A program made the position numbers and the translations under genes. A stretch of DNA of 64,000 bases, from positions 1 to 64,000 of IMG/VR virus record IMGVR_UViG_3300042402_001868; one strand, written 5' to 3'. Of the stretch, positions 3,193 through 48,558 are shown in pieces. The notes under the pieces are model-generated. The model did no database searches, was not told the DNA's origin, and worked only from the letters and a program-made list of their open reading frames with translations. Every line of letters starts with the position of its first letter. Positions within the stretch are counted from its first letter, which is position 1. This stretch comes from a virus.

Positions 3193-3199
3193 AGTAAGT

Positions 3200-3207
3200 T
3201 ATTTACC
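3200..3207 (-). promoter_or_regulatory. Putative late promoter (GGTAAATA) for gp20
   Basis: The minus strand reads GGTAAATA, ending 7 nt before the gp20 ATG at 3192, in the 19 bp gap after the tape-measure gene. It matches six of the eight late-consensus bases. As at 1408 and 28996, the spacing predicts a very short or absent leader. Motif and position only. Confidence 0.4.
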
Positions 3208-3211
3208 GTGT

Positions 3212-29008: not shown

Positions 29009-29383
29009 ATGACTACATTCATTGGGTTTAACACCATTAATCAATACAAAAAGTTTACGTTGACTGACTTTGATTTGATCAAACGAGACCTGCTAAATGC
29101 GTTCAATATCCGCCAGGGACAACTGCCTGGTCGTCCGGCATATGGCACAGTAATTTGGGATTTTTTGTTTGAACCACAGACTACTCAAACTCAAAACGGA
29201 ATAGAAGCAGAAATACAGCGTGTGGCAGGCGGCGACCCACGTATCTACATCAGTGACGTACAAACATATCCACAAGAAAATGGTATCTTGATTGAAATAC
29301 AAATCACTGTGGTACCTACACAAAATGCAGAAATACTCAGCATTTTCTTTGACCAGCAACAACGAGTAGCCTCCTACGTATAA
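29009..29383 (+). CDS. 25: Baseplate wedge protein gp25
   Basis: 124 residues (T4 gp25 is 132). The family core is visible: DFDLIKRDLLNAFNIRQGQL, GRPAYGTVIWDFLFEPQT, EIQRVAGGDPRIYISDVQTY and ILIEIQITVVPTQN. gp25 is the most conserved wedge/sheath-initiator protein of contractile tails, homologous to type VI secretion TssE. It lies directly before gp6, as in T4. Confidence 0.95.
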   Translation: MTTFIGFNTINQYKKFTLTDFDLIKRDLLNAFNIRQGQLPGRPAYGTVIWDFLFEPQTTQTQNGIEAEIQRVAGGDPRIYISDVQTYPQENGILIEIQITVVPTQNAEILSIFFDQQQRVASYV

Positions 29384-29437: not shown

Positions 29438-32400
29438 ATGGCAACAACCACAAGACAGACGGCAATATTTGGTGTAGAAGATTGGAAGCAGATCTATCAA
29501 ACGTATAGAGAAGCAGACTTTCAAAGCTACGATTTTGAAACTCTACGCAAGAGTTTTGTAGATTATCTACGTTTGTATTATCCAGAAACATTCAATGACT
29601 ACATTGAATCAAGTGAATTTATTGCGCTCTTGGACATTATTGCGTTCATGGGCCAATCACTTGCTTTCCGTACTGACCTTAACACTCGTGAAAATTATCT
29701 AGACACAGCGGAACGACGTGATTCAGTTGTGCGACTGGCTAACCTAGTGAGCTACAGTCCCAAGCGCAACACAGCCGCCCAAGGCCTGTTGAAAGTGTTC
29801 AATGTTACCACAACAGAAAACGTTGTGGACTACAACGGAGTCAACTTATCCAACGTCACAGTTGACTGGGCTGATCCCACAAATCCAGACTGGCAAGAAC
29901 AATTCACAGCAATTATCAATGCTTCCTTGGTTGATACCCAACGTGTTGGCCGTCCAGGCAACAGACAAACATTATTAGGCGTGGACACGGCTGAGTATGC
30001 AGTGAATCTAGTGCCAGGGTTTTTGCCTGTTATTCCTTATACTGCCACAGTTGATGGCGTCAACATGCCATTCGAAGCAACCACATCTACTAGTGCTGGA
30101 CGTGATTACTTGTACGAACCACCACCAGTGCCAAACACAAGTTTTAATGTGTTATTCCGTAATGATCAGCTGGGTTTTAGTTCTGCCAATACTGGTTACT
30201 TTTTTATGTTCAAGCAAGGAACATTGCAGAATACAGATTTTAACTTGGCAGAACGCACAAGCAATCGTACTGTGAACATCAACGTGGAAGGCGTCAACAA
30301 TGAGGATCGTTGGTTGTTTGAACTTACCAACGTAGGTAATGTCAACCGCGAATGGCAATATGTAGAAAGTGTGTACACCGCAGCCGCAGAACAAACTGTA
30401 TTACTGCGGCCTATCTATTCTACCACCAGTCGTAGCAATGACCAAATTACTTTGGTATTTGGCGATGGTGTGTTCTCAGAAATTCCTGTGGGTATCTTCC
30501 GTTGTTACACTCGTGCGTCAAATGGCTTGCAGTACATTATCAATCCAGAAGAAATGCAAAATGTCACGTTGCCAATCAGCTACACTGACCGTAATGGTAA
30601 TGTACAAACAATTACATTCACTTGTGGTATCACTCAACCAGTGAGTAATGCGCAAGCTCGTGAAACAATTGATGCAATCAAGCAACGTGCACCTGCTAGA
30701 TACTACACACAGAACCGCATGGTCAACGGCGAAGACTACAATCTGTTTCCGTACACTGCTTATAATAGTATTATCAAATCCAAAGCACTGAATCGTAGTT
30801 CAATTGGCACAAGCCGTTATTTGGATCTAGTTGACAACACTGGCAAGTACTCGTCTACTAACACATTTTCTAGTGATGGTGCTGTATGGGAACAAAATAT
30901 TCTTCCTACTATATTATTCTCTTGGATCAACCGAAACGAAATTGCAGATTTTGTGACAAACACTGCTCAACCACAAATTGGACAGGCCACAATGAAGCAG
31001 TTCTATTATTCTAACTTTCCGCGACCTGAAGTTAACATAACAGACTCGGCCACAGCATTGAGCACCTGGCAACAAAGCACAACATTGGCCAATGAGACCA
31101 CAGGCTATTTTAAAAACGCCAATGGAAATGCTATTCCTGTTGGCGGCAGCACTACAACTGTTTTTGAATATATTCAGGTTGGTAGCATTATTAAATTTAC
31201 TGCTCCTACAATCAATGGTATCACTTACTACTTTGATCGTAACAATAGATTACAACCTGGAGTACCAACCAAGCCTGATGAAAGTTTAGAAATCTGGGCA
31301 AGCCCTCAAGCTATCATTGGCGACGGATACAACGGCGGCCTAGGCAATTTATCGTCTGGCGCTGGGCCAGTAACTCTCAACAACTTTGTGCCAACAAATG
31401 CAGTAGTTGACAGTATTATTCCTGTTTTTATTACAGATTTGCCATTGTCATTAGAACAACAGATGGGCGATCAAATTGAGTTGTTTCGTAATTTTGGTAT
31501 TGGATATGCTAGCACTGAAATTACCACGCCACAGGGCAATAAGATTGAACCAGGTACTTGGTATCTAATCACCAGTACAAATCTTGATGCCAATGCCACT
31601 TGGAGCCAAGACTATGCTGGAGACACATCAGGCACAAACAAAGATGCCAGCTGGTTAGCACAATTTGTGGTTGAAAACCAAAACTACACAGTGACATTCC
31701 GTGGACTTGCATATAACTTTGGTAGTGTGTTACAAACACGTTTCTTCTTCTATGATGACCAATTGGTTTACGATAGCCGAACTGGCACAATTATCAAAGA
31801 CTTTATAAATGTGTTGGCCATGAACACACAACCAAACGACAGCAAACCGTTGCAAAGTGATATCTATATGAATATCATTGGACAACCTGTTGAAAGTGAC
31901 GGTTATGTTGACGACTTCCAGGTGTTAGTAAGTTTCCGCGACAGTGACAATGACGGTGTTCCAGACAACCCAGACTTCTTTGAAGAGATTGTAGGGCCTG
32001 TTCCTGATATTCCTAGCACAGGACCCTGGGTGTTCTTACAACAAACTGTGGACTTTGACAATTTACAACGTTACTTGCTAGTTGAAGAAGGCGTAGTCAA
32101 TTCTGACTATGCCACACTTGATGACATTGAGTTGGTAAAAGCTGAATGGAGTCCTGGACAAGTATTCTATGCCTACGGAACCTACAACAGCAGTGGCGAA
32201 ATAATTGTTGCACCGGCATTTTATCTACTGAGCATTAATGTTGCCGGAGCCAGAACATTGGTTGAACAGTCAGGATGGATTGCAAGATCAGGTCGACAAA
32301 ACTTGTACTTCCAATACCGCCACAACTCACCGCTGACCAATCGTATTGACCCAGGTACCACCAACATCATTGACCTGTATGTGGTAACACAAGCATATTA

Positions 32401-32935
32401 TACTTCTTACCAGAACTGGATCAAAGACACCACTGGCACAGTTACACAACCTGATGTTCCTACAATTGACGAGTTGTCAACTGCTTACCAAGGTCTACAA
32501 GATTACAAAATGATATCAGACAACATTGTGTTGAACTCTGTGAACTTCAAACCATTGTTTGGTGCCAAGGCTGCACAGCAATTGAGAGCCACAATCAAAG
32601 TGATCAAGGCACAAGGATCTACAGCAAGCACCAGCGAAATCAAGAGCAGTGTGGTGGCAGCAATGAACACCTACTTCAGTATTGACAAGTGGAACTTTGG
32701 TGACACCTTCTACTTCTCAGAACTGGCAGGATACTTGCACAGAACACTTGGCAGTATCATCAGTTCAGTGGTGCTAGTACCATTAAACAGTCAGAAGAGC
32801 TTTGGTGACTTGTATGAGATTAGATCCGAACCCAACGAAATCTTTGTGAATGCCGCAGACATAACTAATATAGAGGTGATTGAAGCATTGACCAGCACCA
32901 ATCTTAGAACAGCACCCGGCAGTGGAGTCATTTAA
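29438..32935 (+). CDS. 6: Baseplate wedge protein gp6 (long form)
   Basis: 1165 residues. The N-terminal 200 residues carry the gp6/gpJ-family signature: SFVDYLRLYYPETFNDYIES, EFIALLDIIAFMGQSLAFRT, DLNTRENYLDTAERRDSVVR and LANLVSYSPKRNTAAQG. The middle has ITLVFGDGVFSEIPVGIFRC and NRMVNGEDYNLFPYTAYNS. The C-terminus has VNFKPLFGAKAAQQLRATIK and DTFYFSELAGYLHRTLGSII. T4 gp6 has 660 residues; the extra length is mostly in the middle (~500-1000), with an Asp-rich segment (SDNDGVPDNPDFFEE) that looks like a calcium-type loop. Role: dimeric backbone of the baseplate inner ring. The stop overlaps the next ATG (TAATG). Confidence 0.95.
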   Translation: MATTTRQTAIFGVEDWKQIYQTYREADFQSYDFETLRKSFVDYLRLYYPETFNDYIESSEFIALLDIIAFMGQSLAFRTDLNTRENYLDTAERRDSVVRLANLVSYSPKRNTAAQGLLKVFNVTTTENVVDYNGVNLSNVTVDWADPTNPDWQEQFTAIINASLVDTQRVGRPGNRQTLLGVDTAEYAVNLVPGFLPVIPYTATVDGVNMPFEATTSTSAGRDYLYEPPPVPNTSFNVLFRNDQLGFSSANTGYFFMFKQGTLQNTDFNLAERTSNRTVNINVEGVNNEDRWLFELTNVGNVNREWQYVESVYTAAAEQTVLLRPIYSTTSRSNDQITLVFGDGVFSEIPVGIFRCYTRASNGLQYIINPEEMQNVTLPISYTDRNGNVQTITFTCGITQPVSNAQARETIDAIKQRAPARYYTQNRMVNGEDYNLFPYTAYNSIIKSKALNRSSIGTSRYLDLVDNTGKYSSTNTFSSDGAVWEQNILPTILFSWINRNEIADFVTNTAQPQIGQATMKQFYYSNFPRPEVNITDSATALSTWQQSTTLANETTGYFKNANGNAIPVGGSTTTVFEYIQVGSIIKFTAPTINGITYYFDRNNRLQPGVPTKPDESLEIWASPQAIIGDGYNGGLGNLSSGAGPVTLNNFVPTNAVVDSIIPVFITDLPLSLEQQMGDQIELFRNFGIGYASTEITTPQGNKIEPGTWYLITSTNLDANATWSQDYAGDTSGTNKDASWLAQFVVENQNYTVTFRGLAYNFGSVLQTRFFFYDDQLVYDSRTGTIIKDFINVLAMNTQPNDSKPLQSDIYMNIIGQPVESDGYVDDFQVLVSFRDSDNDGVPDNPDFFEEIVGPVPDIPSTGPWVFLQQTVDFDNLQRYLLVEEGVVNSDYATLDDIELVKAEWSPGQVFYAYGTYNSSGEIIVAPAFYLLSINVAGARTLVEQSGWIARSGRQNLYFQYRHNSPLTNRIDPGTTNIIDLYVVTQAYYTSYQNWIKDTTGTVTQPDVPTIDELSTAYQGLQDYKMISDNIVLNSVNFKPLFGAKAAQQLRATIKVIKAQGSTASTSEIKSSVVAAMNTYFSIDKWNFGDTFYFSELAGYLHRTLGSIISSVVLVPLNSQKSFGDLYEIRSEPNEIFVNAADITNIEVIEALTSTNLRTAPGSGVI

Positions 32936-35900
32936 TGGCAAAAGTACGAAGCGTAGATTTTTTACCTGAAATTTTTCAGACTGACGTAAACAAACAGTTC
33001 CTAGCGGCCACGCTGGATCAGTTGATACAAGAGCCCAAGTTTAAAAAGACTCAAGGATTCATTGGACGCACAGTAGGCCCAGGTGTGAACCCCAATGAAA
33101 AATATGTTGTAGAGCCAACCAAGGTTCGTGCTGACTATCAACTCGAGCCAGGAATCGTCAGCCTCAAGCCAGATACCAATACCATTGAAGATGTCATCAC
33201 ATACCCCGGATTGCTTGATTCGATTGACTATCAAGGTGGCAGCTCAGCCCGTCCAGACAGACTGTTTGAAAGCGAATACTATACCTGGGATCCGTTTGTT
33301 GACTGGGATACCTTTATTAACTTCAGTCAGTACTTCTGGTTGCCGGGTGGTCCGGGTGCGGTTGATGTGGCTGCCACAGGTGTACCAGCAACTGATAATT
33401 TTGTAGTAACCAGAGCCAATGGCGTTTATACGTTTTCTGGGTTGAATGGGGACAACCCCACAGTTGATCTAGTACGCGGCGGCAGTTATACTTTTCAAGT
33501 TGCACAAAACGACAAAGAAACAGTAAATTATCGTGTGACCAATTCTGGGACCAGTGCGTATGTTATTGATTATGTTAACAATCCTACACTGACACTAACA
33601 CGTGGTAACACGTATGTGTTTAATTTAAACTTGAATGGAGTATATCCATTCTATATTAAAACAGCCGCCACCACAGGGTTAAACAATGTTTACAGTTCAG
33701 GCGTGACCAATAATGGTGCAGTCACAGGACTTGTGACATTTGTAGTTCCACAAGATGCACCAGATACGCTGTACTATTCTAGTGCCACGCAATCAAACAT
33801 GCGTGGGCAAATTAATATTATTGACGGCACCGCAGGCACCGGAGCAGGTTTTTGGATACAGGCTGCACCAGGCATCAGTGGCAAAATACCTGCCACCCCA
33901 AACATCAGTTCTAGAGATGTGTACGGTGTAACCAACAATGGCGAAGACCTAGGTACCATTACATTTAACGTTCCTACCAAAACTGCACAACAGTTCTATT
34001 ATGACCTGCCTAGCCTTGGATCCGTTGATTTATTGACTGATTTACGATTTGATCAAATCAATAATATCACTGTGGCGGACTTTATTGCTACCTATGGTGG
34101 TATTGATGGCATCACAGCACTTGACGGCAGAACATTGGTATTTGAAGGTACATCAATAGACACTGATCAAGGCGGCTGGACCAAAACAACTTTTTTTGAT
34201 CCCTTGACACAAAGTGATAGTTTTACAGGACAACCGGGCAGTTATGACAGCTTGTTGTATGCACAACAACTTGAAGTGCCTGTATCTCAACGTCGTGGAA
34301 TTTGGCAAATTAACTATGTCAACAATGCTGGATTTGTTTACATCAGCCTGACCAATGTGGGCAATATCAACGACTTGGAAAAGTTTACTATCTTGTATGG
34401 CAACGTTTATGCAAGCACAGGATGGTTCAAGAACGATGCAGGAGTGTTTAAACAAATACCTTTGTTGACAGCTTCGCAAGATACGCTGTATTACCAAGAT
34501 GGCACAGACCCAGGTATATTTGGTCGAATCAGATTGATTGACCAAACACAAAGTTCCACATTGTACATTGACGAAATTATTGGTAAAAAAAATTACACCA
34601 GTCCCAACGGTGTGGCATTTACTAATGGACTTAAAGTTGTGTTCCGTGGAGATGTTGTTCCGTCTAGCTATATTAATACAGAATATTACATCAGTGGTGT
34701 TGGTGTTGCTATACGGCTGTTGCCAGTATCAAATTTTGTCTGTCCAGAAACTTATGTAGTAGATGCTGATACCAGTACTATTGACACAGAACCATCCACA
34801 TTAGATTACCTGACTATTGATCGTGCAAGTCTAGATCTCAATGCATGGTCCAGAAGCAATCGATGGTTCCACGTTGACGTTATCAATGCCACAGCAAAAT
34901 ACAACAACACTGAAGTTACTATTGACAACCAATATCGTGCCAAACGTCCAATCATTCAATTCCGCGCAGGAATACGTTTGTTCAACATGGGCACTGAAGG
35001 TAAACAGCCTGTTAATGTCATTGACTTTGCAGAATCTGATGCATTTAGCAATGTAGAAGGCAGCACTGGTTACACAGTAGATGGATACAACTTTGTCCAA
35101 GGCAGTCGGGTTATTTTTGCCAAAGATGCTGATGCCAATGTACGCAACAAAATTTGGATAGTTAATTTTGTATCGCCAGATTCGATATCACCAGTGATTT
35201 CTCAACCTATTATCAATTTAACACTGGCCGCTGACGGTGACGTGCTAATTGATCAAAGTACTGTGTGCCTGGATGGTGATACACTTACCGGTGTTACCTT
35301 TTGGTACAACGGAGTTGAATGGACTGAAGCACAATTAAAAACCAAAGTTCAACAAGCACCGTTGTTTAACGTGTATGATGCTGATAGTATAAGTTTTGGG
35401 AACAAGGTAACGTATCCGTCGACTACATTTGTTGGATCAAAATTATTCAGTTATGCCCAAGGAACAACTGGTATCTTGGATCCTATTTTGCAATTCCCGT
35501 TGCAATATTTAAATTTAAACAACGTTGGTGACATTGTATTTGAAAACAACTTGTACAAAGATACATTTTTGTATGTGCGTGATAACGTTAGTACAACATC
35601 ATTGATCAGTTCAGGATTTCCCAGAGAATACGCCACACGATTGTTGTATAATCGACTGCTGGGATGGAACACAGCAATCACGCCATCTCAAGTTAGACAA
35701 CAGTTTAAGTTCACATACGACGGCCGCCCACTACTGTTGGATATTCAAGCACAAAGCGATGGCATTGTTCCTGCGGTAAAAATTTATGTTGGTAGCAAAT
35801 TCAAAGATCCAGGAACGTATACACTTGCAACTACCTCTAACTCATCTACCATCACACTGGATGATACCTATGTGATTGGTGATATTGTTGAGATATTGGT

Positions 35901-38900
35901 ATTGAGTGATCAAACAAGCCAGGCAGCATTTTACCAAGTTCCAATCAACATAGAGAACAATCCGTTAAATGGCAATAGTGATGCATTTACCCTGGGTACT
36001 ATTCGCACACACTACGAATCAATCTGCGAAAATTTAATCACGTTAACTGGCACAATTAACGGTGCAAACAACACACGTGACCTAGGCGCAATTGGACCCT
36101 ACGGGTTAATTATTCTGCAACAAAGTAGTCCGTTGACCTTGGCAGGATATTTTAACCGTAGCAAAGAATACAATATTTTTGCTTCATTACAATATAACTC
36201 ACGCGAATATCAAAAGTTCAAAGACCTGTTGATGAACGAAGTTACTAACTTAACTTTATACACAGAAACTCCTGCAGAGATATTGGTAGAAGCAATGGCC
36301 AACATCACACTGGGACGACTAGAATCTAATCCATTCTACTGGTCAGACATGGTGCCATCTGGATCAGTATACATTGAAAACAAATACACAGTGAGTTTGA
36401 TCACGACTAATGTATTTGATACTGTGCAAGTTTACAATTACACGTCGTCTAACTATCTAGGATTGTTGGTTTACAAAAACAATGAGTTGTTGACTCGTGG
36501 GTTTGACTATACAGTGGCTACAGATGGCCCGCGAATCACAATACTAACACCATTGGCTGTTGGTGATGTCATTGCCATCCAAGAATATTCAGCCACCTAT
36601 GGCAACTTTGTTCCTAACACTCCTACCAAGATGGGATTGTACCCGTCTTTCCGTCCAGTAATAACCACAATTAATGCCACATCTGGTCCCCGACTGGTTA
36701 TTGTTGGCCATGACGGCAGCCAAACTCCGGTTTTTGGCGATGTTCGAGATCAAGTATTACTTGAATTTGAAACACGTATTTTTAATAATTTAAAACTAGA
36801 TGGTAATCCTGTGCCAATTAACGTCAGTGACGTAATACCAGGACAGTTCCGTAGCACTGGATATTCGTCGGCAGAAATTAATGATATATTAAATGTAGAT
36901 TTCTTAAGCTATGTTGGATGGAACAAGTTAGATTACAACACACAAAATTACATTGCAAGCAATGAGTTCTCGTGGAACTACAGCGGCTCTCAAAACAAAT
37001 TGACCACAAGTCAAAATCTAATTGGATCTTGGCGCGGCATCTACAAATATTTTTATGACACCCAAGACCCTGCTAAAACTCCGTGGGAGATGTTGGGATT
37101 CAGTATTAGACCATCATGGTGGAATGATGTTTACGGGCCAGGGCCATACACATCAGAAAACATGGTGTTATGGGATGACCTAGAAGCAGGTATTGTAGCT
37201 AACCCACAGGGATCGTATGTACTTCCAGCATATATTCGTCCTAATCTTACGCAAGTAATACCAGTTGATAGTGAGGGTAATTTAGTAAGTCCATTTGAGT
37301 GTGTGGTCAGCAACTACAACGAAACAACATTTCAAAAGAGCTGGAGCACCGGGGACGGCAGTCCAGTTGAAGCGTCGTGGTGGAATTCAAGTGCATACCC
37401 GTTTGCTATCATGCGATTGTATGCATTAACTATTCCTGCTAAGTTTTACGCATTATACGCAGACAGAGACTTATATCGCTACCAAGCTGAGTTTGGGCAA
37501 TTTCTTTACAATGATCGATATCGTCTAGATGCCAATGGTATACAAGTATATGGTAATGGCACAAGCAAAGCCAGTTTTATCAACTGGATTGTGGACTATA
37601 ATCGTGTTACTGGCATAAACAGTACCACGGCTCTTGAAGCAAATCTTGCTAGCATTGACGTTCGCTTGTGCTATAGGTTAGCTAGTTTTACTGACAAACA
37701 GTATATTAAATTATACACTGAAAAATCTAGCCCTAATAGCTTGAATGCAACATTGATGATTCCCGATGAAAGTTATGATCTGTTGTTGTACAAAAATCAA
37801 CCGTTTGATCGGTTGATTTACAGTTCAGTTGTGATACAAATTGTTGAAGGCGGCTATGCTGTTTACGGATATTCAACTACCCAACCTTACTTTGATATTT
37901 TAGTAAGTCAATCAGCTGGCAGATTAAAACCATACACCGTCGGCGATGTTACTGTAAGGGTGCCCACAACATACACCAACACTGTGGCACAAGTTCCGTA
38001 TGGATATGTGTTTACAAATCAAACCAGCGTGTGTGATTTCTTGTTGAGTTACGGAAAACTATTAAATGAACAAGGGCTGGTATTTGATGATAGAGTCAAC
38101 GGTTACCAACTGGACTGGGATCAAATGGTTGTTGAGTTCTTGTACTGGAGTCAGCAAGGATGGGAAAACAATTGTTTGATCAATCTCAACCCATTGGCCA
38201 GTGCGTTAACAATTACAAAACCAGGCGCGGTAGTTGACAGCATTATTACACAAACTAGTGAAAATGTTATATTAGACCAAAACAAGCGTGAGTTGCCTAC
38301 TCGCAATATCAATATTGTGCGACTAGAGAACACATTGACGCTACAACCGCTAACCGACCAAAGTCTAAGTTTTGCTGATTTGCGTTTTACAAACTTTGAA
38401 CACATGATTGTGTTAAACAATCAAAGTGTGTTTGGAGATTTGATTTATGAACCTATTACCGGCGCTCGTCAGAGCAGATTGAACTTTGTTGGCATAACCA
38501 GCACCGAATGGAATGGAACTGTTGATGCCCAAGGCTTTATCTTGAACCAAGATAATGTTGAAGAATGGTCTGGGCTTAAAAAATACAGCAAAGGCCAAAT
38601 TGTCAAGTACAAGGATCAGTATTGGAGTGCCATGGTCATTGTTGATCCTAGCACGGAGTTTGATTTCAACAAGTGGTCCAAGAGCGACTATAGTCAAATT
38701 GAGTTAGGGTTGTTACCAAATATTGCTAACAAGGCAAATCAACTACAAAATTCATACAGTGTTAACACTGCCAATCTAGAAGGCGACAACGACTTGTTGA
38801 GTTATGGATTAATTGGATTCCGTCCACGTGAATACATGGCAGCATTGAATCTGGATGATGTTAGTCAGGTAAATGTTTACTCACAGTTCCTGGGCAGTAA

Positions 38901-41900
38901 AGGAACAATTCTTTCAGCAGAGCTGTTGAGCAATGCCAACCTTGGTAAAGAATCTGCAGACTATCAAATTTACGAAAACTGGGCAGTACAACGTGCAGTA
39001 TACGGCGCCAATGCTAACCGTAGCTTTGTTGAACTAAAATTAAATCGCGCACTACTAAGTGCCAACCCAAGTCTAGTACAGGTTATCCAACCCCAAGAAC
39101 AAAGCCAAGCTGATCAAACTATTTTCTTGAGCAATGTATGGCGACAGAGTTACAAGCTAACTTCGCCAGACTTCTTACCTACCACAATGACCGAAGTCAC
39201 AGACACCGCCTTACCAAGTGCGGGATATGTTAACCTTGAAGATGCTGATATCACCACATTTGATCTTGGCACAAGATCTACTATTGCTGCCAACTTAGGA
39301 TTGGTAAGTGTTGGTGCCACTGTTTGGGTAGCCAAAGTCAACAACTACGACTGGGACATTTATCGTTGTGTTAATATTCCTGGATTTATTGACCACGTGT
39401 GTGACAATTTGGATGGAACATCAATTGTAAACTTTACAAAACCACACGGCTTGTCTGTAGGCGATCGACTGATTATCAAGCAGTTTGATGTGAGAATTGA
39501 TGGCGTATATCGTGTGCTAACTGTTCAGGGCATTAACCGTGTTACTATTGCTTATACATTTACACCTGGAGGCCAAACAGTCATCAACGGCGTTGGCATT
39601 GGATTTACACTGCAAACTCAACGTGTTGCACAAGCCAGCGACATTATAAATTTACCTTACACAGATGATATTCAAACAGGTGCCAAAGTATGGGTAGACA
39701 ACGACGGCACGGGACATTGGCAAGTTTTACAAAAAGAAAACCAGTTCTCGGATGTTATTGAACTAGCACCAGTACTGCTAGATGCAACTGAAGCATATGG
39801 GCAAAGTGTTACCCAAGCTCGTAATCGTTTTGCCGCATTGGTAGGTAGTCCACGTTATGGATTCCCAACAGGTGCAGAGCAAGGTGCTGTGTATGTGTAT
39901 GTTAAAAACTACAGTGATCAATACGCACCAGTGAGTCCAGTGGCCAATGGCGATGCTATTTTAACACTTGACATAACTGGTGTGCGGGGATATGGTAATG
40001 CAGTAGACTTTGGCAATCAAACATGGGCAGTAGCAGGTGCCAGCAAAAGTCTAGGCCCGGCCAGCGAAGTTGATGTAGGATACGCCGCAGTAATTTACCG
40101 TGATCCAAGTCTTGGTGAGCCCGGTGTGATTCCTTATGTACAGTGGCAGTTGTTGATATCTCCTAACAATATCGAACCAGGCTTGTTTGGACACAGTGTG
40201 GCAATCAGCACAGACGAACGTTGGTTGTATGTTGGTGCTCCTGCTGCCAACAAAGTTTATGCATATGGACAGGTTGACTGGCAAGATCAGTTTGTCAAAG
40301 TAAGAGGCGACGGTGTTACCAAGACCTTTAACATATCTCAAACCATACAAATTAATGCTGCCACTCAGTTGCTTGTGACAGTAGACGGAACAGAGCAGGC
40401 TCTTGGTACAGACTATACAGTTGACAGCAGCCTGGCTGTAGTGACTTTTGCAACTGCACCAGCAGTTGGTGTTTTAGTTGACATTCATCGCTACAATCGT
40501 AAAAACATTGACGGCGGCAATTACTACAACGTTACAACTCCAACTACCTCTGGAGCAGGATCAGGTGCTGAGTTTACTATTAGACGAGTTCGAAATGAAG
40601 TAGGACAACCAGGTAGTGTTTCTGGCGGTGTAGGCGTCACATTTGGTGGTACCGGATATGCCGGCGGCGATACTATAACATTTGCACCAAGCAAATTTGG
40701 CGGTCAGGTAAACTTGATTTTAACCGTTAGCACGGTTGGATCAGGTGGATCAGTTGAGACCTTTACTATTGCATACGGCCCAGGGGGACTAACACTAACA
40801 ACTGTATTCTCATTAAACGAATTCTTCTTCACAGTTGATAACATTTATTCATTCTCTGTATATGTCAATGAGGTGTTGTATCGACCAGGTATTGATTATA
40901 CATTTAATACTGGAACTAAAGACATAACATTTGTAACAGTTCCTGCTGCCGGTACTTTAATCACAGTGCAAGCTCAGAGTTATTATGAATATGTTGACAC
41001 ACTAACCATTGCTGGACTGGCAGCCGATGCGCAATTTGGTTACAGCGTGACCACCACAGTTGATGGCCGCCAGGTCATGGTTGGTTGCAAAGACGAAGAC
41101 ATTGATGGCAAAGTTGATGCTGGCAGTGTGTATGTGTTTGATCGTAATGTCCAACGTTTCATATACGGAACTGATCCTAGTTCAACCATGTTCACAGTGT
41201 TAGGCACAGTGACTGCACCTGTGAGTGTTATAGTAAACAATGTGTTTTTGATAAACCAAACAGATAGCATTATTGGAGCACCAAACAGTTTCACAGTTGC
41301 TGGTAATGACATTACGATCAACTCGGATTTGCAAATTGGCGATGTAATTGATATTGAAACAAATCAATTTTCATTGATGCAACAAGTTATACAACAGACT
41401 GTGAATTCGTCTAGTGCGGTTGTTGACAACCCAATGGAGTTTACTAATTTTGGCCATGCTGTAGATATCTGTACATACAGTTGTAGTTTGTACATTGGTG
41501 CACCACAAGACAGTACCAACGGCTGGAAAGCTGGTAGTGTTCAACGCAACGTGAATCAAAGTAGAATATATGGCAGCACGGTAACATTAACCAAAGATCC
41601 TGTATTAACTCCTGGCGATACGTTACGAGTTAATAATCAAGATATTGAAATTTTATTCCCCACTGCTGAACAGACCAGTCTTCAGCGCCTGGCACAGTCT
41701 ATTACAGAAACTGTGCCAAACGTCGTGGCCAGTGTAGCCAATGGGTATTTGACCATTGCTGTGGCCAACACCACAGCCGCAGCCCCCACTAATAAACTTC
41801 AGGTGGCACCGGGTTCAGTGGGATCTGCGTTTGATGACATTGGATTTACTACATTTGTTTACACACAAAGTATTTACAGTCCTTACCCAGTAGATTTTGC

Positions 41901-44900
41901 AGGGTTTGGATCAAGTCTCAGCATAGATGATTCGGCTGTTAACCTAGTGGTAGGAGCACCTCGTGGTACATTATATTTGATCACAATCTTTGATGATGGC
42001 ACGACAGACTTTGATGAGAACAGCACAATCTTCTTCTCAGAAGTGGTACAAAGTGGAGCGGTGTACACATATGACTATCTGCGCAGTGCAAACGAAAGCG
42101 CAACCAATCCAGGCAAGTTTGTGTTTGGTTTACAAATAACTGACAGCAACATTTATTCATATGATGTGTTTGGCGCATCGGTAAGCTATGTTGACGGAGT
42201 GTTAATGGTTGGTGCATCAGGAAACGATGCTACGGCTGCCGACAGTTCGGGTTCTAATTATGGTCGTGTGTTTGTGTTTGAAAATGCCACTCGTACACCA
42301 GCTTGGACACCAATAAGAGTACAACAGCCAGTGGTAGATATTCGTCTGTTAAATTCAGTGTTCACATACGATGTACTAACCAGTGCAAGAACACAGCAAT
42401 TTGATTTCTTCGACCCACTACAAGGAAAAATCCTTGGAGCAGCCAAACAAAATATCAATTACATAAGTGCAATTGATCCAGCAGGGTATAATGTTGGCCC
42501 AGTTAACAATTTGGGCAATACTTGGCTGGGCGAACATGTAGGTCAAGTTTGGTGGGATATTAGCACAGTGAGATTTATTGATCCCAACCAAGATGATATC
42601 GTGTATGCAAGTCGTCGTTGGGGACAAGTGTTTCCGGGCAGTTCCATTGACATGTATCAATGGATTCAATCTAGTGTGCCGCCAGCAACATATACCGGCG
42701 AAGGTACACCGTTGAATGTTTACTCGTATACGGTGAGTACAAGATTAGGTATTGACGGTACGTTTAATACCTATTACTATTTCTGGGTCAAAGGACTTAC
42801 AACTGTTGCTACTCAACAAGGCAAGACGTTGTCTCCACAGACTGTGGCCAACTATATTGAAAATCCCAAAGCCAGTGGAATTGCATACATTGCTCCGGTG
42901 AATGCAAGTACTATAGCAATTTACAATGCCACGACAATCATTGAAGCAGAAGACACAGTGATCAGTGTTGAATTTGATCGCGAATATACCGATAATAATG
43001 TTCACGTTGAGTATGAGTTGATTGCTCAAGGCAAGTCGGATGCATTCCTGAGCACCAACTTGTACCGCAAACTGCAAGATAGTTTCTGTGGTGTTGACAC
43101 TGCTGGCAATTTAGTCCCAGATCCTACATTAAATGCCGCTGAACGTTACGGAGTACAGTTCCGTCCACGCCAGTCAATGTTTGTGGATCGCTTTGAAGCT
43201 CTAAAAAACTACATTGTGCGCACAAACAATGTGTTATCATTGTACCCAATTGTTGAGAATCGCAGTTTTGTGCTGTTAAATTCTAGCGAACCAGAGCCGC
43301 CATCAACGGCTGTTGGCGTTACGAATTGGAACATGCGTGTGGCCAACTTGGAAATTTTAAGTTTCCAAGATATCAATGCGGTGCCAATTGGTTACAAATA
43401 TTTGGTTGCCAGTGACAGCCGAAATAACGGACTATGGACCATTTACACAGTGCAATATGGCCAAGGTGTGTTGATCGGTGTAAAAGAGCTGGTGTTAACT
43501 CGTGTGCAAAACTACGACACTCGTAGATACTGGAGTTATGTCAATTGGTATCGACCAGGATATAACTCAAGTACCAAAATTATTGCTGAAGTTCCTAACT
43601 ACAGTGCATTGGCAGCAGTTAGTGTACCAATCGGATCTAGTGTAGAAGTTATTTCTAACGCTCAGGGTAAGTTTGAAATTTACTTGTTTACTGAACTTGG
43701 CTGGGAACGTGTGGGATTACAAGACGGCACAATTGAAATTTCTGCAGAAATTTATAACTATGCCCTGGGACGATTTGGATTTGACGTTGAAGTATTTGAT
43801 GCACAGTACTACGATCAAGAACCTGTGATTGAAACACGCAAGATTATTCAAGCCATCAATGAAGAATTGTTTATCGACGAACTTGCAATTGAACGTAACA
43901 AAGCATTGACCCTGATGTTTAACTTTGTGTTGAGTGAATTCTCTGCGCCTGAATGGTTGGTTAAAACATCACTGATTGATGTGGATCACAATATTCGTAA
44001 CCTAGAACCATTCCAAAACTATCGCCAGGACAATCAAGAGTTTGTGCTTGACTACATCCAAGAAGTCAAACCTTATCACGTGCAAATTCGTGAATTTAAC
44101 TTGTTGTACAACGGTCAAGATGCATACGCTGGCGACATAACTGACTTTGATGTGCCAGCATACTATAACACCAGTTTGGTTGTGCCACAATACACCAGTC
44201 CAATTTTGAATATTGATGATACTACTGATCCTCGTTATCAACAACCGTACTTGCATAGCACACATCAACAGGACAACACATTAAGTGATACGCCACCATC
44301 AAGCCTAGTATGGCAAGCATGGCCATATAGCCAATGGATCAACAATTACTTGTTGAATTTGCAAAGTATCAAGATGGTCACTGGCGGTAGCGGCTACACT
44401 GAAGCACCCACAGTCACACTCGATGGTGATGCAACAACACCGGCGATACTGCAAGCATTCCTAGGCCCAGTTACTGAGTCAGGCACAGCATCGGTATTGT
44501 ACATTGCAATCATCGATGCAGGTTCAGGATATTATGCAACACCCACTGTGGTGTTTAGCGGAGGCAATGGATCTGGTGCACAAGCATATGCAGTGATAGG
44601 TAATGATCTTGTTCGTAGTTTCCGCACAGTTATCAAATACGACCGATATCAATACCAAACAAATATTCTAACCTGGAACACAAACGGCACCTACGAAGAT
44701 GGTACGCTGGTTAGATATGACGATCAAGTTTGGAGAGCTGCCAGTACTGACTCAACAGCAGTAGTTGGGCCAACATTTAATTTAGATCAATGGCAATTGG
44801 TTCCTGCTAATGATCTTAGCGGTGTTGATCGTACCATGGGTTACTATGTGCCAGGTGTGAACGAGCCTGGAGTTGATTTACCTCTGCTGATTGACGGCAT

Positions 44901-47784
44901 TGGTTATCCCGGGGTTCAGGTATGGGGCGATTACTTCTTGGGTAGCAATCCCAATAGTACACAACTTGAATGCACTGCAACCTCAGCAACCAACAATCAA
45001 ATTACCTGCGCCAACACTCTAGGACTACAAGCAACTGCACCAATCAAGTTTTTGGGCACTACGTTTGGTGGAATACAACAAGATGTTAACTATTTTGTAA
45101 AAGACATTGTTGATCAAACGCATTTTACTATTTGTACAGATGTAGGTGGATTTGCACTTGATTTAACAACAGCAACCGGCTCCATGCAAGCCATCAGCTT
45201 GCAAATTTTAGACGCTGTATACTCCAGCAGTTTTGGTGACATTTATCTAGGCACTAGATATTCGGATATCAACATTGATGGTGGTGAATTCATTGGATTG
45301 TACGAAGGACATGCACCCGAAGAATTAGTCAATGGTGCTGAATTTGATACCCTGGACATGCGTGTGTACACACGCCCGGGATCAGACTGGTCGTTATACA
45401 ATAACATTGCCGGCGCAGACGGACACGGCTTCCAAATTTCCAGCCGTCGATATGTCTACGAAACAGACCAATTGTTAAACTGGGATGGCCTAGTAGAAAA
45501 CCCAGTGCACCTTGAAGTTAGTAATGTTAATACAGGACTAGATCTTGTGCCCGATGTAGACTTTGTTGTTGATTGGGTTAACCGCACTGTTGATATGATT
45601 GCTAGAGTTTCTGTTGGTGAAATTGTAAATATCTCAGCGTACGAACTAGGTGGCGGAAGTCAATTGTATCGACAAAATTATGTTGGTAGTGATGTTTTGG
45701 ATACACTGATAGTTCCGGTAAATTCTACCGAAATTTATCAAGCTGTATTATTCGTCAATGGCGTTCTTACTCCAGTAGATAGTTGGGAACCATACTATCC
45801 AGGAACAGAGTGGGATCAGTTGATTGCTTACAACAAACTTGATGTAGTGTATACTACTGGACCTACAACTTATTATCGAGCATTACAAAATGTCATTGCT
45901 GGAATTGATATTACCAATGCCGCATACTGGCAAGAGTTTGTACCAGTAACACTGAGTAAAATCACACTGGATCAAGAGTACTCTAGTACCGATGCTCTCA
46001 ATATCACAATACTTGGATTCACAACTCCAGTACAATATTCCTGGAGTACTCTGCAAACTGAATATTTTGCAGTTACACCGGCAATCAATACTAGTAAAAC
46101 TGTGAATTTAACCAATTCAGTTGCTGGCACAAACATACCTAACATGATTGTGGAAATTGATGGCATTAGATTGCGCCCATATGAAGGCATTGAGTGGATT
46201 GGAGATAACAGTTCCACCAGCTTTGGGTTGCCACAACGAGGTGGCTATCCGCAATCAATTATCAATCCCATCATTGACGTTACGGTTTTTGTGGACGACG
46301 TGTTGCAAACACAAAGTTTTGGTGCATTCACTGGAGACTACAGCGTGAGCAACTGGGATGGTTCTAACACGCCAGGTCGTCAGGTACAGTTTATAACCGC
46401 TCCTGATTATGGTGCTAGAATTTTAATATCAGTAAGTGTTGCGGCATCGTACTTTGTGTCAGGCTCGCAATTGCAGTTGATTAGTCCTCCGCCTGTCGGA
46501 GCCACTATCTCTGTGGGTACATTTAATGATACATCACAACAAAATATATTGACTCAAGTTTATCAAGGTCCTATTGTAGGAGGTGTTGTAATTGATGAAC
46601 CATATGATACTACTGCATTTGACACCGGAGTAGTTAACAATGATCCAGGATCATACGACTACTCTGAAGGTATTCCTTTGCTATCAAATCAATTTGACCT
46701 TGGCAGACCCGGTGTTGACGCAAGCCGACTTTGGGTAACACTCAATGGTTATAGATTATTTGATGGTCAAGACTACACAGTACAAGGACAATACGTAATT
46801 TTTGCTGGCGGAGCAATTGCTTCTAGTGATATTGCAGTAATCCAACAATTTACCAATAGTGTTGTTCCAGAAGCTATGGCTTTCCGTGTGTTCCAGGACA
46901 TGCGTGGAGTACAGGCAACTTATAGAATTACACCCAGCACAACTACAGAGTTAGTACAAAGCATGTCCGCAACAGCTGACATTGCATATGTGCGTGATGC
47001 GACTCACCTAACAGAACCTGATTTAATAAACGGGATATTTGGTGTATGCACTATTGGCGGTGAACGCATCATGTATCGTACTCGTAACACTGCTATGAAT
47101 ACTATTTCAGGACTCATGAGAGGTACTGCTGGTACTGGTGCTGACAACCATATTGTTGGTGACCCAGTGTATGACATGGGTCGTGGCAATTTGTTAGGCG
47201 AAGAATACCAAGATCGAATCATCAAAGATGACACATTAGCAGACGGATCAACCACTATATTCTATGCCCCTAGCATCTATCTACCTATTGTGGATCCTAA
47301 AGATTCTAGTACTGTGTACATTGATCACAGCATCGAAGTGTATGTTGGTGGTATTCGTCAGTATCCCATAACAGAAGTTGATACACCTAGTCAATATCGC
47401 TACACCATCTTTACTGTAGATCCATTGGTACCTGGTAACCCCTACACAATTGGCGTAGAATTTATCACTGATAATGATCCGTACAATCCGTTAGTGGCTC
47501 CAGCCGCTGGATCTGCTGTTACTATTGCACAACGTCGTGGATATTTCTGGTACAACAACGGTGCTGTTCGTCCAGTAACCACAGCAATTGCCAGCGATAG
47601 CTACTTTATTAATGCGTTAGGAAATACTGATTTTACCCTAATTGGCGCACCAGAAAACACCGTGGGAATATTGTTTGTTGCCACCGGACCAGGCACTGGA
47701 ACTGGCACAATAAGCACTGTTTCGGATGGTGTTGCTTTACAAGAAACTAACACACAAGCCGCAAGGTTCTTGCGTGGTTTATAA
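32935..47784 (+). CDS. Giant baseplate wedge/tail protein (gp7 position), modular
   Basis: 4949 residues in one uninterrupted frame, nearly a quarter of the window. The N-terminus KVRSVDFLPEIFQTDVNKQF followed by LIQEPKFKKTQGFIGRTVGP GVNP is the start of the large gp7-position proteins of marine T4-like phages. Gene order 25-6-this supports it. T4 gp7 has only 1032 residues. Modules: a cupredoxin-like beta domain (~215-297); several beta units with a GxDYT ... G(D/V)xIxI pattern (for example near 980, 1200, 2480 and 2650); seven FG-GAP-type repeats (~2286-3118); a gp7-like core rich in YFWxP and DQEFVLDYIQEVKPYHVQIR (~3700); GGSGYTEAPTVT repeats (~3818-3888); and a terminal GTGTGT beta motif. 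No protease or enzyme motif seen. Likely a wedge arm with adhesin-like modules. Confidence 0.75.
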   Translation: MAKVRSVDFLPEIFQTDVNKQFLAATLDQLIQEPKFKKTQGFIGRTVGPGVNPNEKYVVEPTKVRADYQLEPGIVSLKPDTNTIEDVITYPGLLDSIDYQGGSSARPDRLFESEYYTWDPFVDWDTFINFSQYFWLPGGPGAVDVAATGVPATDNFVVTRANGVYTFSGLNGDNPTVDLVRGGSYTFQVAQNDKETVNYRVTNSGTSAYVIDYVNNPTLTLTRGNTYVFNLNLNGVYPFYIKTAATTGLNNVYSSGVTNNGAVTGLVTFVVPQDAPDTLYYSSATQSNMRGQINIIDGTAGTGAGFWIQAAPGISGKIPATPNISSRDVYGVTNNGEDLGTITFNVPTKTAQQFYYDLPSLGSVDLLTDLRFDQINNITVADFIATYGGIDGITALDGRTLVFEGTSIDTDQGGWTKTTFFDPLTQSDSFTGQPGSYDSLLYAQQLEVPVSQRRGIWQINYVNNAGFVYISLTNVGNINDLEKFTILYGNVYASTGWFKNDAGVFKQIPLLTASQDTLYYQDGTDPGIFGRIRLIDQTQSSTLYIDEIIGKKNYTSPNGVAFTNGLKVVFRGDVVPSSYINTEYYISGVGVAIRLLPVSNFVCPETYVVDADTSTIDTEPSTLDYLTIDRASLDLNAWSRSNRWFHVDVINATAKYNNTEVTIDNQYRAKRPIIQFRAGIRLFNMGTEGKQPVNVIDFAESDAFSNVEGSTGYTVDGYNFVQGSRVIFAKDADANVRNKIWIVNFVSPDSISPVISQPIINLTLAADGDVLIDQSTVCLDGDTLTGVTFWYNGVEWTEAQLKTKVQQAPLFNVYDADSISFGNKVTYPSTTFVGSKLFSYAQGTTGILDPILQFPLQYLNLNNVGDIVFENNLYKDTFLYVRDNVSTTSLISSGFPREYATRLLYNRLLGWNTAITPSQVRQQFKFTYDGRPLLLDIQAQSDGIVPAVKIYVGSKFKDPGTYTLATTSNSSTITLDDTYVIGDIVEILVLSDQTSQAAFYQVPINIENNPLNGNSDAFTLGTIRTHYESICENLITLTGTINGANNTRDLGAIGPYGLIILQQSSPLTLAGYFNRSKEYNIFASLQYNSREYQKFKDLLMNEVTNLTLYTETPAEILVEAMANITLGRLESNPFYWSDMVPSGSVYIENKYTVSLITTNVFDTVQVYNYTSSNYLGLLVYKNNELLTRGFDYTVATDGPRITILTPLAVGDVIAIQEYSATYGNFVPNTPTKMGLYPSFRPVITTINATSGPRLVIVGHDGSQTPVFGDVRDQVLLEFETRIFNNLKLDGNPVPINVSDVIPGQFRSTGYSSAEINDILNVDFLSYVGWNKLDYNTQNYIASNEFSWNYSGSQNKLTTSQNLIGSWRGIYKYFYDTQDPAKTPWEMLGFSIRPSWWNDVYGPGPYTSENMVLWDDLEAGIVANPQGSYVLPAYIRPNLTQVIPVDSEGNLVSPFECVVSNYNETTFQKSWSTGDGSPVEASWWNSSAYPFAIMRLYALTIPAKFYALYADRDLYRYQAEFGQFLYNDRYRLDANGIQVYGNGTSKASFINWIVDYNRVTGINSTTALEANLASIDVRLCYRLASFTDKQYIKLYTEKSSPNSLNATLMIPDESYDLLLYKNQPFDRLIYSSVVIQIVEGGYAVYGYSTTQPYFDILVSQSAGRLKPYTVGDVTVRVPTTYTNTVAQVPYGYVFTNQTSVCDFLLSYGKLLNEQGLVFDDRVNGYQLDWDQMVVEFLYWSQQGWENNCLINLNPLASALTITKPGAVVDSIITQTSENVILDQNKRELPTRNINIVRLENTLTLQPLTDQSLSFADLRFTNFEHMIVLNNQSVFGDLIYEPITGARQSRLNFVGITSTEWNGTVDAQGFILNQDNVEEWSGLKKYSKGQIVKYKDQYWSAMVIVDPSTEFDFNKWSKSDYSQIELGLLPNIANKANQLQNSYSVNTANLEGDNDLLSYGLIGFRPREYMAALNLDDVSQVNVYSQFLGSKGTILSAELLSNANLGKESADYQIYENWAVQRAVYGANANRSFVELKLNRALLSANPSLVQVIQPQEQSQADQTIFLSNVWRQSYKLTSPDFLPTTMTEVTDTALPSAGYVNLEDADITTFDLGTRSTIAANLGLVSVGATVWVAKVNNYDWDIYRCVNIPGFIDHVCDNLDGTSIVNFTKPHGLSVGDRLIIKQFDVRIDGVYRVLTVQGINRVTIAYTFTPGGQTVINGVGIGFTLQTQRVAQASDIINLPYTDDIQTGAKVWVDNDGTGHWQVLQKENQFSDVIELAPVLLDATEAYGQSVTQARNRFAALVGSPRYGFPTGAEQGAVYVYVKNYSDQYAPVSPVANGDAILTLDITGVRGYGNAVDFGNQTWAVAGASKSLGPASEVDVGYAAVIYRDPSLGEPGVIPYVQWQLLISPNNIEPGLFGHSVAISTDERWLYVGAPAANKVYAYGQVDWQDQFVKVRGDGVTKTFNISQTIQINAATQLLVTVDGTEQALGTDYTVDSSLAVVTFATAPAVGVLVDIHRYNRKNIDGGNYYNVTTPTTSGAGSGAEFTIRRVRNEVGQPGSVSGGVGVTFGGTGYAGGDTITFAPSKFGGQVNLILTVSTVGSGGSVETFTIAYGPGGLTLTTVFSLNEFFFTVDNIYSFSVYVNEVLYRPGIDYTFNTGTKDITFVTVPAAGTLITVQAQSYYEYVDTLTIAGLAADAQFGYSVTTTVDGRQVMVGCKDEDIDGKVDAGSVYVFDRNVQRFIYGTDPSSTMFTVLGTVTAPVSVIVNNVFLINQTDSIIGAPNSFTVAGNDITINSDLQIGDVIDIETNQFSLMQQVIQQTVNSSSAVVDNPMEFTNFGHAVDICTYSCSLYIGAPQDSTNGWKAGSVQRNVNQSRIYGSTVTLTKDPVLTPGDTLRVNNQDIEILFPTAEQTSLQRLAQSITETVPNVVASVANGYLTIAVANTTAAAPTNKLQVAPGSVGSAFDDIGFTTFVYTQSIYSPYPVDFAGFGSSLSIDDSAVNLVVGAPRGTLYLITIFDDGTTDFDENSTIFFSEVVQSGAVYTYDYLRSANESATNPGKFVFGLQITDSNIYSYDVFGASVSYVDGVLMVGASGNDATAADSSGSNYGRVFVFENATRTPAWTPIRVQQPVVDIRLLNSVFTYDVLTSARTQQFDFFDPLQGKILGAAKQNINYISAIDPAGYNVGPVNNLGNTWLGEHVGQVWWDISTVRFIDPNQDDIVYASRRWGQVFPGSSIDMYQWIQSSVPPATYTGEGTPLNVYSYTVSTRLGIDGTFNTYYYFWVKGLTTVATQQGKTLSPQTVANYIENPKASGIAYIAPVNASTIAIYNATTIIEAEDTVISVEFDREYTDNNVHVEYELIAQGKSDAFLSTNLYRKLQDSFCGVDTAGNLVPDPTLNAAERYGVQFRPRQSMFVDRFEALKNYIVRTNNVLSLYPIVENRSFVLLNSSEPEPPSTAVGVTNWNMRVANLEILSFQDINAVPIGYKYLVASDSRNNGLWTIYTVQYGQGVLIGVKELVLTRVQNYDTRRYWSYVNWYRPGYNSSTKIIAEVPNYSALAAVSVPIGSSVEVISNAQGKFEIYLFTELGWERVGLQDGTIEISAEIYNYALGRFGFDVEVFDAQYYDQEPVIETRKIIQAINEELFIDELAIERNKALTLMFNFVLSEFSAPEWLVKTSLIDVDHNIRNLEPFQNYRQDNQEFVLDYIQEVKPYHVQIREFNLLYNGQDAYAGDITDFDVPAYYNTSLVVPQYTSPILNIDDTTDPRYQQPYLHSTHQQDNTLSDTPPSSLVWQAWPYSQWINNYLLNLQSIKMVTGGSGYTEAPTVTLDGDATTPAILQAFLGPVTESGTASVLYIAIIDAGSGYYATPTVVFSGGNGSGAQAYAVIGNDLVRSFRTVIKYDRYQYQTNILTWNTNGTYEDGTLVRYDDQVWRAASTDSTAVVGPTFNLDQWQLVPANDLSGVDRTMGYYVPGVNEPGVDLPLLIDGIGYPGVQVWGDYFLGSNPNSTQLECTATSATNNQITCANTLGLQATAPIKFLGTTFGGIQQDVNYFVKDIVDQTHFTICTDVGGFALDLTTATGSMQAISLQILDAVYSSSFGDIYLGTRYSDINIDGGEFIGLYEGHAPEELVNGAEFDTLDMRVYTRPGSDWSLYNNIAGADGHGFQISSRRYVYETDQLLNWDGLVENPVHLEVSNVNTGLDLVPDVDFVVDWVNRTVDMIARVSVGEIVNISAYELGGGSQLYRQNYVGSDVLDTLIVPVNSTEIYQAVLFVNGVLTPVDSWEPYYPGTEWDQLIAYNKLDVVYTTGPTTYYRALQNVIAGIDITNAAYWQEFVPVTLSKITLDQEYSSTDALNITILGFTTPVQYSWSTLQTEYFAVTPAINTSKTVNLTNSVAGTNIPNMIVEIDGIRLRPYEGIEWIGDNSSTSFGLPQRGGYPQSIINPIIDVTVFVDDVLQTQSFGAFTGDYSVSNWDGSNTPGRQVQFITAPDYGARILISVSVAASYFVSGSQLQLISPPPVGATISVGTFNDTSQQNILTQVYQGPIVGGVVIDEPYDTTAFDTGVVNNDPGSYDYSEGIPLLSNQFDLGRPGVDASRLWVTLNGYRLFDGQDYTVQGQYVIFAGGAIASSDIAVIQQFTNSVVPEAMAFRVFQDMRGVQATYRITPSTTTELVQSMSATADIAYVRDATHLTEPDLINGIFGVCTIGGERIMYRTRNTAMNTISGLMRGTAGTGADNHIVGDPVYDMGRGNLLGEEYQDRIIKDDTLADGSTTIFYAPSIYLPIVDPKDSSTVYIDHSIEVYVGGIRQYPITEVDTPSQYRYTIFTVDPLVPGNPYTIGVEFITDNDPYNPLVAPAAGSAVTIAQRRGYFWYNNGAVRPVTTAIASDSYFINALGNTDFTLIGAPENTVGILFVATGPGTGTGTISTVSDGVALQETNTQAARFLRGL
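39794..42290 (+). repeat. Seven FG-GAP-type repeats (predicted beta-propeller) inside the giant protein
   Basis: Each repeat follows the pattern (F/Y)Gxx(V/L) ... VGAP/VGAS ... G.VYVY or similar: AYGQSV, GYGNAV, LFGHSVAI..YVGAPAANKVYAYG, QFGYSV..VMVGCKD..GSVYVFD, NFGHAV..LYIGAPQD, GFGSSLSI..LVVGAPRG..GAVYTYD, and VFGASV..LMVGASGN..GRVFVFE. The count of seven equals the blades of an integrin-alpha type propeller. Blades 3 and 4 are separated by about 280 residues of inserted beta domains. Confidence 0.65.
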
Positions 47785-47803: not shown

Positions 47804-47956
47804 ATGTCAAACACAACGCCAAACAAGCCCGTAGCTACTGCTCCACAGCAGGAACGCCCACGTCGTCCAAACGAAATGGGCACAATCAGTGTACAGGCAC
47901 ATTTTAGAATCAGTGATCCAGTAACACAGAAAACCATTGTGGAGGGACGAGGATGA
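47804..47956 (+). CDS. Small virion-region protein, 50 residues
   Basis: Starts ATG 47804 and ends TGA 47956, overlapping the next ATG (ATGA at 47953). Starts MSNTTPNKPVATAPQQERPR, then RPNEMGTISVQAHFRISDPV, ending with an Arg-Gly dipeptide. A Pro/Gln/Arg-rich tail is followed by one strand-rich stretch. The late promoter before it and the coupled stop/start after it support it being real. Function unknown; similar small proteins occur between wedge and fibre genes of marine T4-like phages. Confidence 0.65.
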   Translation: MSNTTPNKPVATAPQQERPRRPNEMGTISVQAHFRISDPVTQKTIVEGRG

Positions 47957-48558
47957 TAACTCCCGGGCTTGCTAAGATCACAGGGCACGTTAAAATACAT
48001 GACCCTGCTAGCGGTGAGATTTTTTACAATGATCACAACGCTATTCACTACGAAAACATTTCAATTGCCATGGCACAAACCCTGGCAGATCGTAATACAG
48101 GATACATCTATCAAATGGCGTTTGGCAACGGAGGATCTAGTGTGGATCCCACAGGCGTTATTACCTATTTGCCCCCAAACACCACAGGTCAAAATGCTGA
48201 CCTGTACAATCAAACCTATGCCAAAGTAGTCAACGACAACTCGGCAGCAGACACAGATCCAGAAAATAACAAAATGACAGTGTTGCACACGTCTGGAAAC
48301 GTTTACACAGATATTTTGGTAAGTTGTTTGCTGGACTACGGCGAGCCACCCGAACAACAGGCATTTGATAACAGCACAAATTACAATGGTGAATATGTGT
48401 TTGACGAATTAGGGCTGAAAGCCTGGAACGGAAGTGCAGATAATCTGCGGTTAATTACGCACGTGATCTTCCACCCAGTGCAAAAGAGTTTGAATCGACA
48501 GATTCAAATCGACTATACATTGCGTATACAGACATTAAGCAATATTAATGCTGTATAA
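47953..48558 (+). CDS. Virion structural protein, unknown (tail fibre/wedge region)
   Basis: 201 residues. ITGHVKIHDPASGEIFYNDH NAIHYEN gives a typical N-terminal fibre-attachment-like start; then MAFGNGGSSVDPTGVITYLP and YVFDELGLKAW with IDYTLRIQTL at the end. All-beta appearance. By position it would be near T4 gp8 (334 residues), but no gp8 motif is evident. Its TAA is part of the next TATAAATA promoter. Assigned as structural by context only. Confidence 0.55.
   Translation: MITPGLAKITGHVKIHDPASGEIFYNDHNAIHYENISIAMAQTLADRNTGYIYQMAFGNGGSSVDPTGVITYLPPNTTGQNADLYNQTYAKVVNDNSAADTDPENNKMTVLHTSGNVYTDILVSCLLDYGEPPEQQAFDNSTNYNGEYVFDELGLKAWNGSADNLRLITHVIFHPVQKSLNRQIQIDYTLRIQTLSNINAV

Follow-up and report, generated by a model that had tools for sequence, protein, structure and literature searches.

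A giant modular protein of the PHROG 10938 family in the gp7 position of uncultured T4-like jumbo phages

Gene organization of the locus

The window analysed here is a stretch of 64,000 nucleotides from a viral IMG/VR record of 155,922 bases. Since related IMG/VR records extend up to 317-342 kb, the phage behind it is probably a jumbo phage and the present record a fragment of its genome. The window carries a series of baseplate genes (Table 1), among them a 14.85 kb open reading frame for a protein of 4949 residues (544 kDa, pI 4.4), referred to below as the giant. Its first base is also the final base of the gp6 frame. The initial annotation described it as one protein in the gp7 position, and a single frame directly after gp6 bears this out. 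Contractile tails usually have the gene order gp25-gp6-gp7, and gp6-gp7 or gp25-gp6-gp7 was observed in T4 and P-SSM2.

The surroundings of the giant are fixed among its relatives, in the order gp25, gp6, giant, 201-aa protein and fibre gene. Genes for gp5, gp25 and gp6 lie upstream in 23/23 relatives, and the 201-aa protein and the fibre N-terminus lie downstream in 24/24. The initial annotation saw no genes resembling T4 gp9-gp12 directly after the giant; the genes that follow it are those of the 201-aa protein and the fibre-like protein, and the record has no gp12 match.

The 201-aa protein is a strongly conserved partner (77-98% identity among relatives, exceeding the conservation of the giant), and the cultured phages that carry the two proteins are nearly identical sets (87 and 84 records). 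Its counterparts are virion proteins in PA5oct and in phAPEC6, where it is gp251c (PMC7247149 Table 1). The family has no assigned function, and the protein is a possible candidate for an unrecognised wedge subunit.

Table 1. Baseplate genes of the window and subdivisions of the giant protein
Feature	Coordinates	Strand	Family or remark
Baseplate hub/tail lysozyme, gp5-like	26153..27658	+	phrog_13211
446-aa protein			upstream, listed between gp5-like gene and gp25 gene
Baseplate wedge protein, gp25-like	29009..29383	+	
Baseplate wedge protein gp6	29438..32935	+	phrog_10646; phrog_219 is T4 gp6
Giant protein, putative virion protein, gp7 position	32935..47784	+	PHROG 10938
Conserved N-terminal piece, residues 1-145	32935..33369	+	common to RaK2, PA5oct, Atu_ph07, SCTP-2
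Cupredoxin-like clade-specific insert, residues 146-545	33370..34569	+	absent in PA5oct, SCTP-2, RaK2
Conserved core, residues 546-2150	34570..39384	+	common to cultured jumbo phages
Seven FG-GAP repeats, residues ~2280-3130	39772..42324	+	absent in RaK2
Second conserved core piece, residues 3101-3760	42235..44214	+	
Variable C-terminal part, residues 3761-4949	44215..47781	+	GGSGYT units, RG-x-GT module
201-aa protein, strongly conserved partner gene	47953..48558	+	phrog_11259
Fibre-like protein, conserved ~190-residue N-terminus	48587..50329	+	

Elsewhere in the window, a 939-aa protein (3212-6031, - strand) reads as tape-measure-like, and its C-terminal stretch resembles a peptidase domain (HTSGRAMDF, AGHIHAQ); Pfam gives no match. 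Genes resembling those of recombination nuclease subunits 46 and 47 enclose two sugar-nucleotide genes (15440-17169, - strand), which are unusual at such a site: one for an NAD-dependent epimerase and one for a short UDP-glucose/GDP-mannose dehydrogenase (only 256 aa). The stretch 54497-59981, after glycosyltransferase-like genes that are themselves downstream of the fibre gene, encodes two or more radical-SAM proteins, of which one has a SPASM domain.

Distribution and conservation of the frame

The giant is a real protein that is widespread among T4-like jumbo phages. A scan of IMG/VR with residues 1-1333 finds 237 encoding stretches, and profile scans with its cores find more than 550 relatives per scan among the matches listed. 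In each of the 37 IMG/VR records that were matched through the C-terminal part, the protein is encoded by a single unbroken frame, 4162-5014 aa long; the complete sequences taken from 24 of these records measure 4153-4992 aa. Comparison of the giant with three close relatives gives whole-length omega (dN/dS) values of 0.049, 0.054 and 0.071. Because omega is also low (about 0.02-0.11) in every segment where it could be computed, the whole giant, modules included, is under strong purifying selection. A scan of bacterial genomes returned only three matches, all in metagenome-assembled genomes and unusable for host assignment.

Architecture of the giant

Whole-length alignment of the giant with its relatives and with proteins of cultured phages separates a conserved core from clade-specific inserts. 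The core totals ~2400 residues (1-145, about 546-2150 and 3101-3760), and the clade-specific parts are residues 146-545, about 2150-3100 and the variable C-terminus, 3761-4949. The clade-specific modules gain or lose pieces. The place of residues 2100-3130 is filled by 160 aa in RaK2, 300 aa in PA5oct, 457 aa in SCTP-2 and 1489 aa in Atu_ph07. The initial description of a large, modular protein is upheld, and most of the modules listed there were recovered.

The first insert is a cupredoxin-like domain, as annotated; both a profile match and fold comparison place it at residues ~146-545. An AlphaFold model of residues 1-1180, built with 68 sequences, has a mean pLDDT of 76.5 and good confidence over residues 146-545. 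Its top Foldseek matches are two-domain laccases, CueO and rusticyanin, the leading entries having probabilities mostly of 0.75-1.0. The C-terminal module of phrog_677, a cyanophage wedge-fibre connector, aligns with residues 178-297 (E 8.8e-19). The connector has this module in common with the giant, whereas its T4 gp9-type N-terminus has no counterpart there. The four copper-ligand sites, H, C, H and M in a P-SSM2 fibre copy, are Y237, S282, Q286 and M289 in the giant. A copper-binding role was rejected because three of the four ligands are lost (Y, S and Q; M is kept). Many fibre and connector proteins of cyanophages contain a cupredoxin-like module of this type. Cyanophage BLAST matches were discarded as homologues of the giant, since their alignments are limited to this module.

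The second insert contains the seven-fold FG-GAP repeat of the initial annotation. There are exactly seven copies of the motif [FY]Gx[SAN][VL], at residues 2288, 2353, 2418, 2701, 2839, 2991 and 3079, all in one block and nowhere else among the 4949 residues. Pfam FG-GAP_2 scores above cut-off in the giant and matches 24/25 relatives. The suitable model here is PF14312, not PF01839; the short PF01839 model gives no FG-GAP match in the window record. When repeats 3, 4 and 7 serve as training set, repeats 1, 5 and 6 score 9.9, 12.4 and 5.2 bits, compared with at most 2.7 bits for shuffled controls, and repeat 2 is recovered only by a model trained on repeat 2 itself. The number of repeats suggests a propeller of seven blades, in which additional beta modules would separate blades 3 and 4, 4 and 5, and 5 and 6.

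Smaller beta repeats complete the list. Of five hand-picked DYT units (the GxDYT beta units of the initial annotation), three pass a leave-one-out test and two fail. The GGSGYT-type repeats were located as units at residues 3817 and 3863. An RG-x-GT module at residues ~4669-4760 aligns with residues 67-170 of cyanophage gp7 (hhalign 91.8%).

Homologues in cultured jumbo phages

The giant matches PHROG 10938 in four stretches that cover most of the core (E 4.7e-285), and its pieces also match separately. Members of this family include RaK2 ORF070 (3326 aa), SCTP-2 gp140 (3807 aa), PA5oct gp355 (3857 aa) and Atu_ph07 gp180 (4449 aa). The homologues in these four phages and in phAPEC6 have the core in common with the giant, at 23-30% identity over residues 1-145, ~546-2150 and ~3100-3750, and all five are shorter. 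Those of RaK2, PA5oct and SCTP-2 lack the cupredoxin insert present in the window. The FG-GAP motif series was sought at the corresponding place in RaK2, PA5oct, SCTP-2 and Atu_ph07 and not found, which sets these four apart from the window giant; Atu_ph07 also has no Pfam FG-GAP match.

The family member directly follows gp6 in PA5oct, Atu_ph07 and RaK2. PA5oct has the same gene order as the window, phAPEC6 has gp25-gp6-giant, and Atu_ph07 and RaK2 have gp6-giant; the neighbours of SCTP-2 gp140 are unannotated. The PHROG category of the family is 'head and packaging', a label that this position does not support.

Two of the homologues are known to be virion proteins. PA5oct gp355 is marked as detected in virions by ESI-MS/MS. 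The phAPEC6 protein gp245 (381.9 kDa) was found in the virion by 17 unique peptides, and its gene lies beside that of gp244, a baseplate wedge protein (PMC7247149 Table 1). The window phage itself is uncultured.

Relation to T4 gp7

T4 gp7, whose length of 1032 aa was given correctly in the initial annotation, follows gp6 as the giant does. It is nearly five times shorter, and no profile similarity between the two proteins was found. The T4 gp7 family (phrog_964; PF21427, PF21428 and PF21456) has no PHROG or Pfam match in the giant, and profile searches with all five giant segments found no significant match among solved structures. Foldseek searches with models of residues 1-1180 (residues 1-115 at low confidence) and 3090-4130 returned no gp7 among the matches shown. 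For residues 3090-4130 there was no significant match in the PDB, and BFVD returned mainly the giant's own family. Because there is neither a profile match nor a T4 gp7 match from the two AlphaFold models, 'gp7' is a positional assignment here. The giant may nevertheless work like gp7.

A stronger version of this likeness holds that the giant is a true but very divergent homologue of T4 gp7, with wedge helices in its core beyond the reach of profile detection. These helices would bundle with two gp6 chains. This is a narrower form of the explanation favoured below and compatible with it. The position directly after gp25-gp6 fits such descent. Cyanophage giant gp7 proteins keep the helical segment of T4 gp7, so giant homologues exist, and the N-terminus of the window giant, LPEIFQTDVNKQFLAATLDQL, superficially resembles the start of that segment. 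However, comparisons by hhalign argue the other way. As a positive control, cyanophage gp7 N-termini align with T4 gp7 over its helical stretch (71.8%, E 3.5e-5), whereas the N-terminus, core 2 and core 3 of the window giant reach probabilities of only 0.1-0.4% with eight Straboviridae gp7 sequences. The N-terminus and cores of the window family also find no match among cyanophage gp7 N-termini. With the Foldseek results pointing in the same direction, true homology to gp7 is a reasonable minority view, with the odds moderately against it.

Giant proteins after gp6 in other phages

The initial annotation presented the giant frame as a replacement for T4 gp7. That such a protein is exceptional is not upheld, since giants after gp6 are usual in cyanophages (3274-6198 aa) and in Rak2-like jumbo phages. 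P-SSM2 has the order gp25-gp6-gp7-gp8 with an annotated gp7 of 5195 aa. Annotated coordinates put the frame after gp6 at 4314 aa in S-CAM7, 4225 aa in ACG-2014f, 4067 aa in Bellamy, 6198 aa in S-RIM14, 3274 aa in S-RIM44 and 3446 aa in S-WAM2. According to a published description, pelagimyophages and cyanomyophages carry VrlC in place of T4 gp7, which they lack (PMC7029224). Huge phages encode proteins of up to 7694 aa, some of them tentatively structural (PMC7162821).

The giant gp7 proteins of Kyanoviridae resemble the window giant in their place directly after gp6, in size class and in small beta modules (the RG-x-GT module and GSGY units). They differ in that their N-terminus retains the helical segment of T4 gp7, which was not found in the window giant, and no core common to the two families was detected. 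In P-SSM2, gp8 immediately follows the giant gp7, unlike the arrangement in the window. With giants in this slot already known, what is new here is the extra modules only, chiefly the seven-repeat FG-GAP region.

Fibre attachment and host contact

Matches to the gp7, gp8 and gp12 families are absent from the window record and from the long records (317-337 kb) of four relatives. As a control, gp8 is recovered from T4 and P-SSM2 by the same search. The lack of gp8 and gp12 matches in these five records would fit a giant that is mainly a host-contact and fibre-docking protein and has taken over the jobs of T4 gp8-gp12, its core being only an anchor. The cupredoxin, propeller and C-terminal modules would then bind fibres or surface glycans. 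The phrog_677 module that the giant has in common with cyanophage wedge-fibre connectors is in keeping with this role, as is the clade-specific gain and loss of module pieces. Several observations weigh against it. In three of these four relatives, other frames of the long record encode gp9/gp10-type N-termini, and a fibre gene lies directly downstream. Selection on the modules is strongly purifying and they do not change fast, and close homologues do without them. A mainly host-contact role is doubtful. Because relatives keep separate proteins with gp9/gp10-type N-termini, fibre attachment need not be the job of the giant; a combined wedge and fibre-attachment role, as first proposed, is possible and not required.

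Processing and integrity of the protein

Very large mosaic proteins invite the suggestion of post-translational cleavage into several mature proteins, in which case the core and modules of the giant would act apart. The mass spectrometry reports give partial peptide coverage only; that of phAPEC6 gp245 is 7.6%, a value compatible with processing. However, both phAPEC6 and PA5oct list the whole gene product as a virion protein, and processing is improbable. Neither T4 gp7 nor any of its fellow wedge proteins in T4 is known to be cut.

An artefact of assembly or chimera formation, which the initial annotation had named among the findings that would refute its reading, can be dismissed with near certainty: IMG/VR contigs may hold concatenation artefacts (PMC7162821), yet nothing in this case was found to favour one, and the single long frame in 37/37 relatives from separate records, an omega of ~0.05 and the fixed flanking genes rule out such an origin.

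Probable role of the giant in the baseplate wedge

The explanation we favour, at roughly two chances in three, is that the giant is a PHROG 10938 virion protein that serves as the arm of every baseplate wedge, with clade-specific modules, in place of T4 gp7. Because no similarity to T4 gp7 or to any solved wedge protein was detected, the wedge-arm location rests on gene order. By analogy with wedge stoichiometry, six copies would probably be present per virion. The ~2400-residue core (1-145, 546-2150 and 3101-3760) would bind gp6 and neighbouring proteins and frame the wedge. The clade-specific beta modules inserted in it (cupredoxin-like, FG-GAP propeller, DYT, GGSGYT and RG-x-GT) would stand out from the rim of the baseplate, where they could act as spacers, fibre docking sites or cell-surface contacts. 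In RaK2-type phages this core occurs without the modules, which are thus dispensable for assembly. The best reading is of a wedge protein at the baseplate periphery whose modules serve for spacing or surface contact. A more speculative extension, which we hold only tentatively, is that this uncultured jumbo lineage has put a complete integrin-like, seven-bladed FG-GAP propeller with inserted beta domains, together with a copper-less cupredoxin block, into its wedge arm and so gained a receptor- or fibre-binding surface of its own.

A length of 4949 aa alone is not unusual for the gp7 slot. The usual view of the wedge gene that follows gp6 is of a conserved part of the machine. In the present family and in cyanophages alike, this gene is instead a large scaffold that takes module insertions while its frame stays under strong selection. 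The existence of members with and without the propeller makes the diversification of the baseplate wedge testable.
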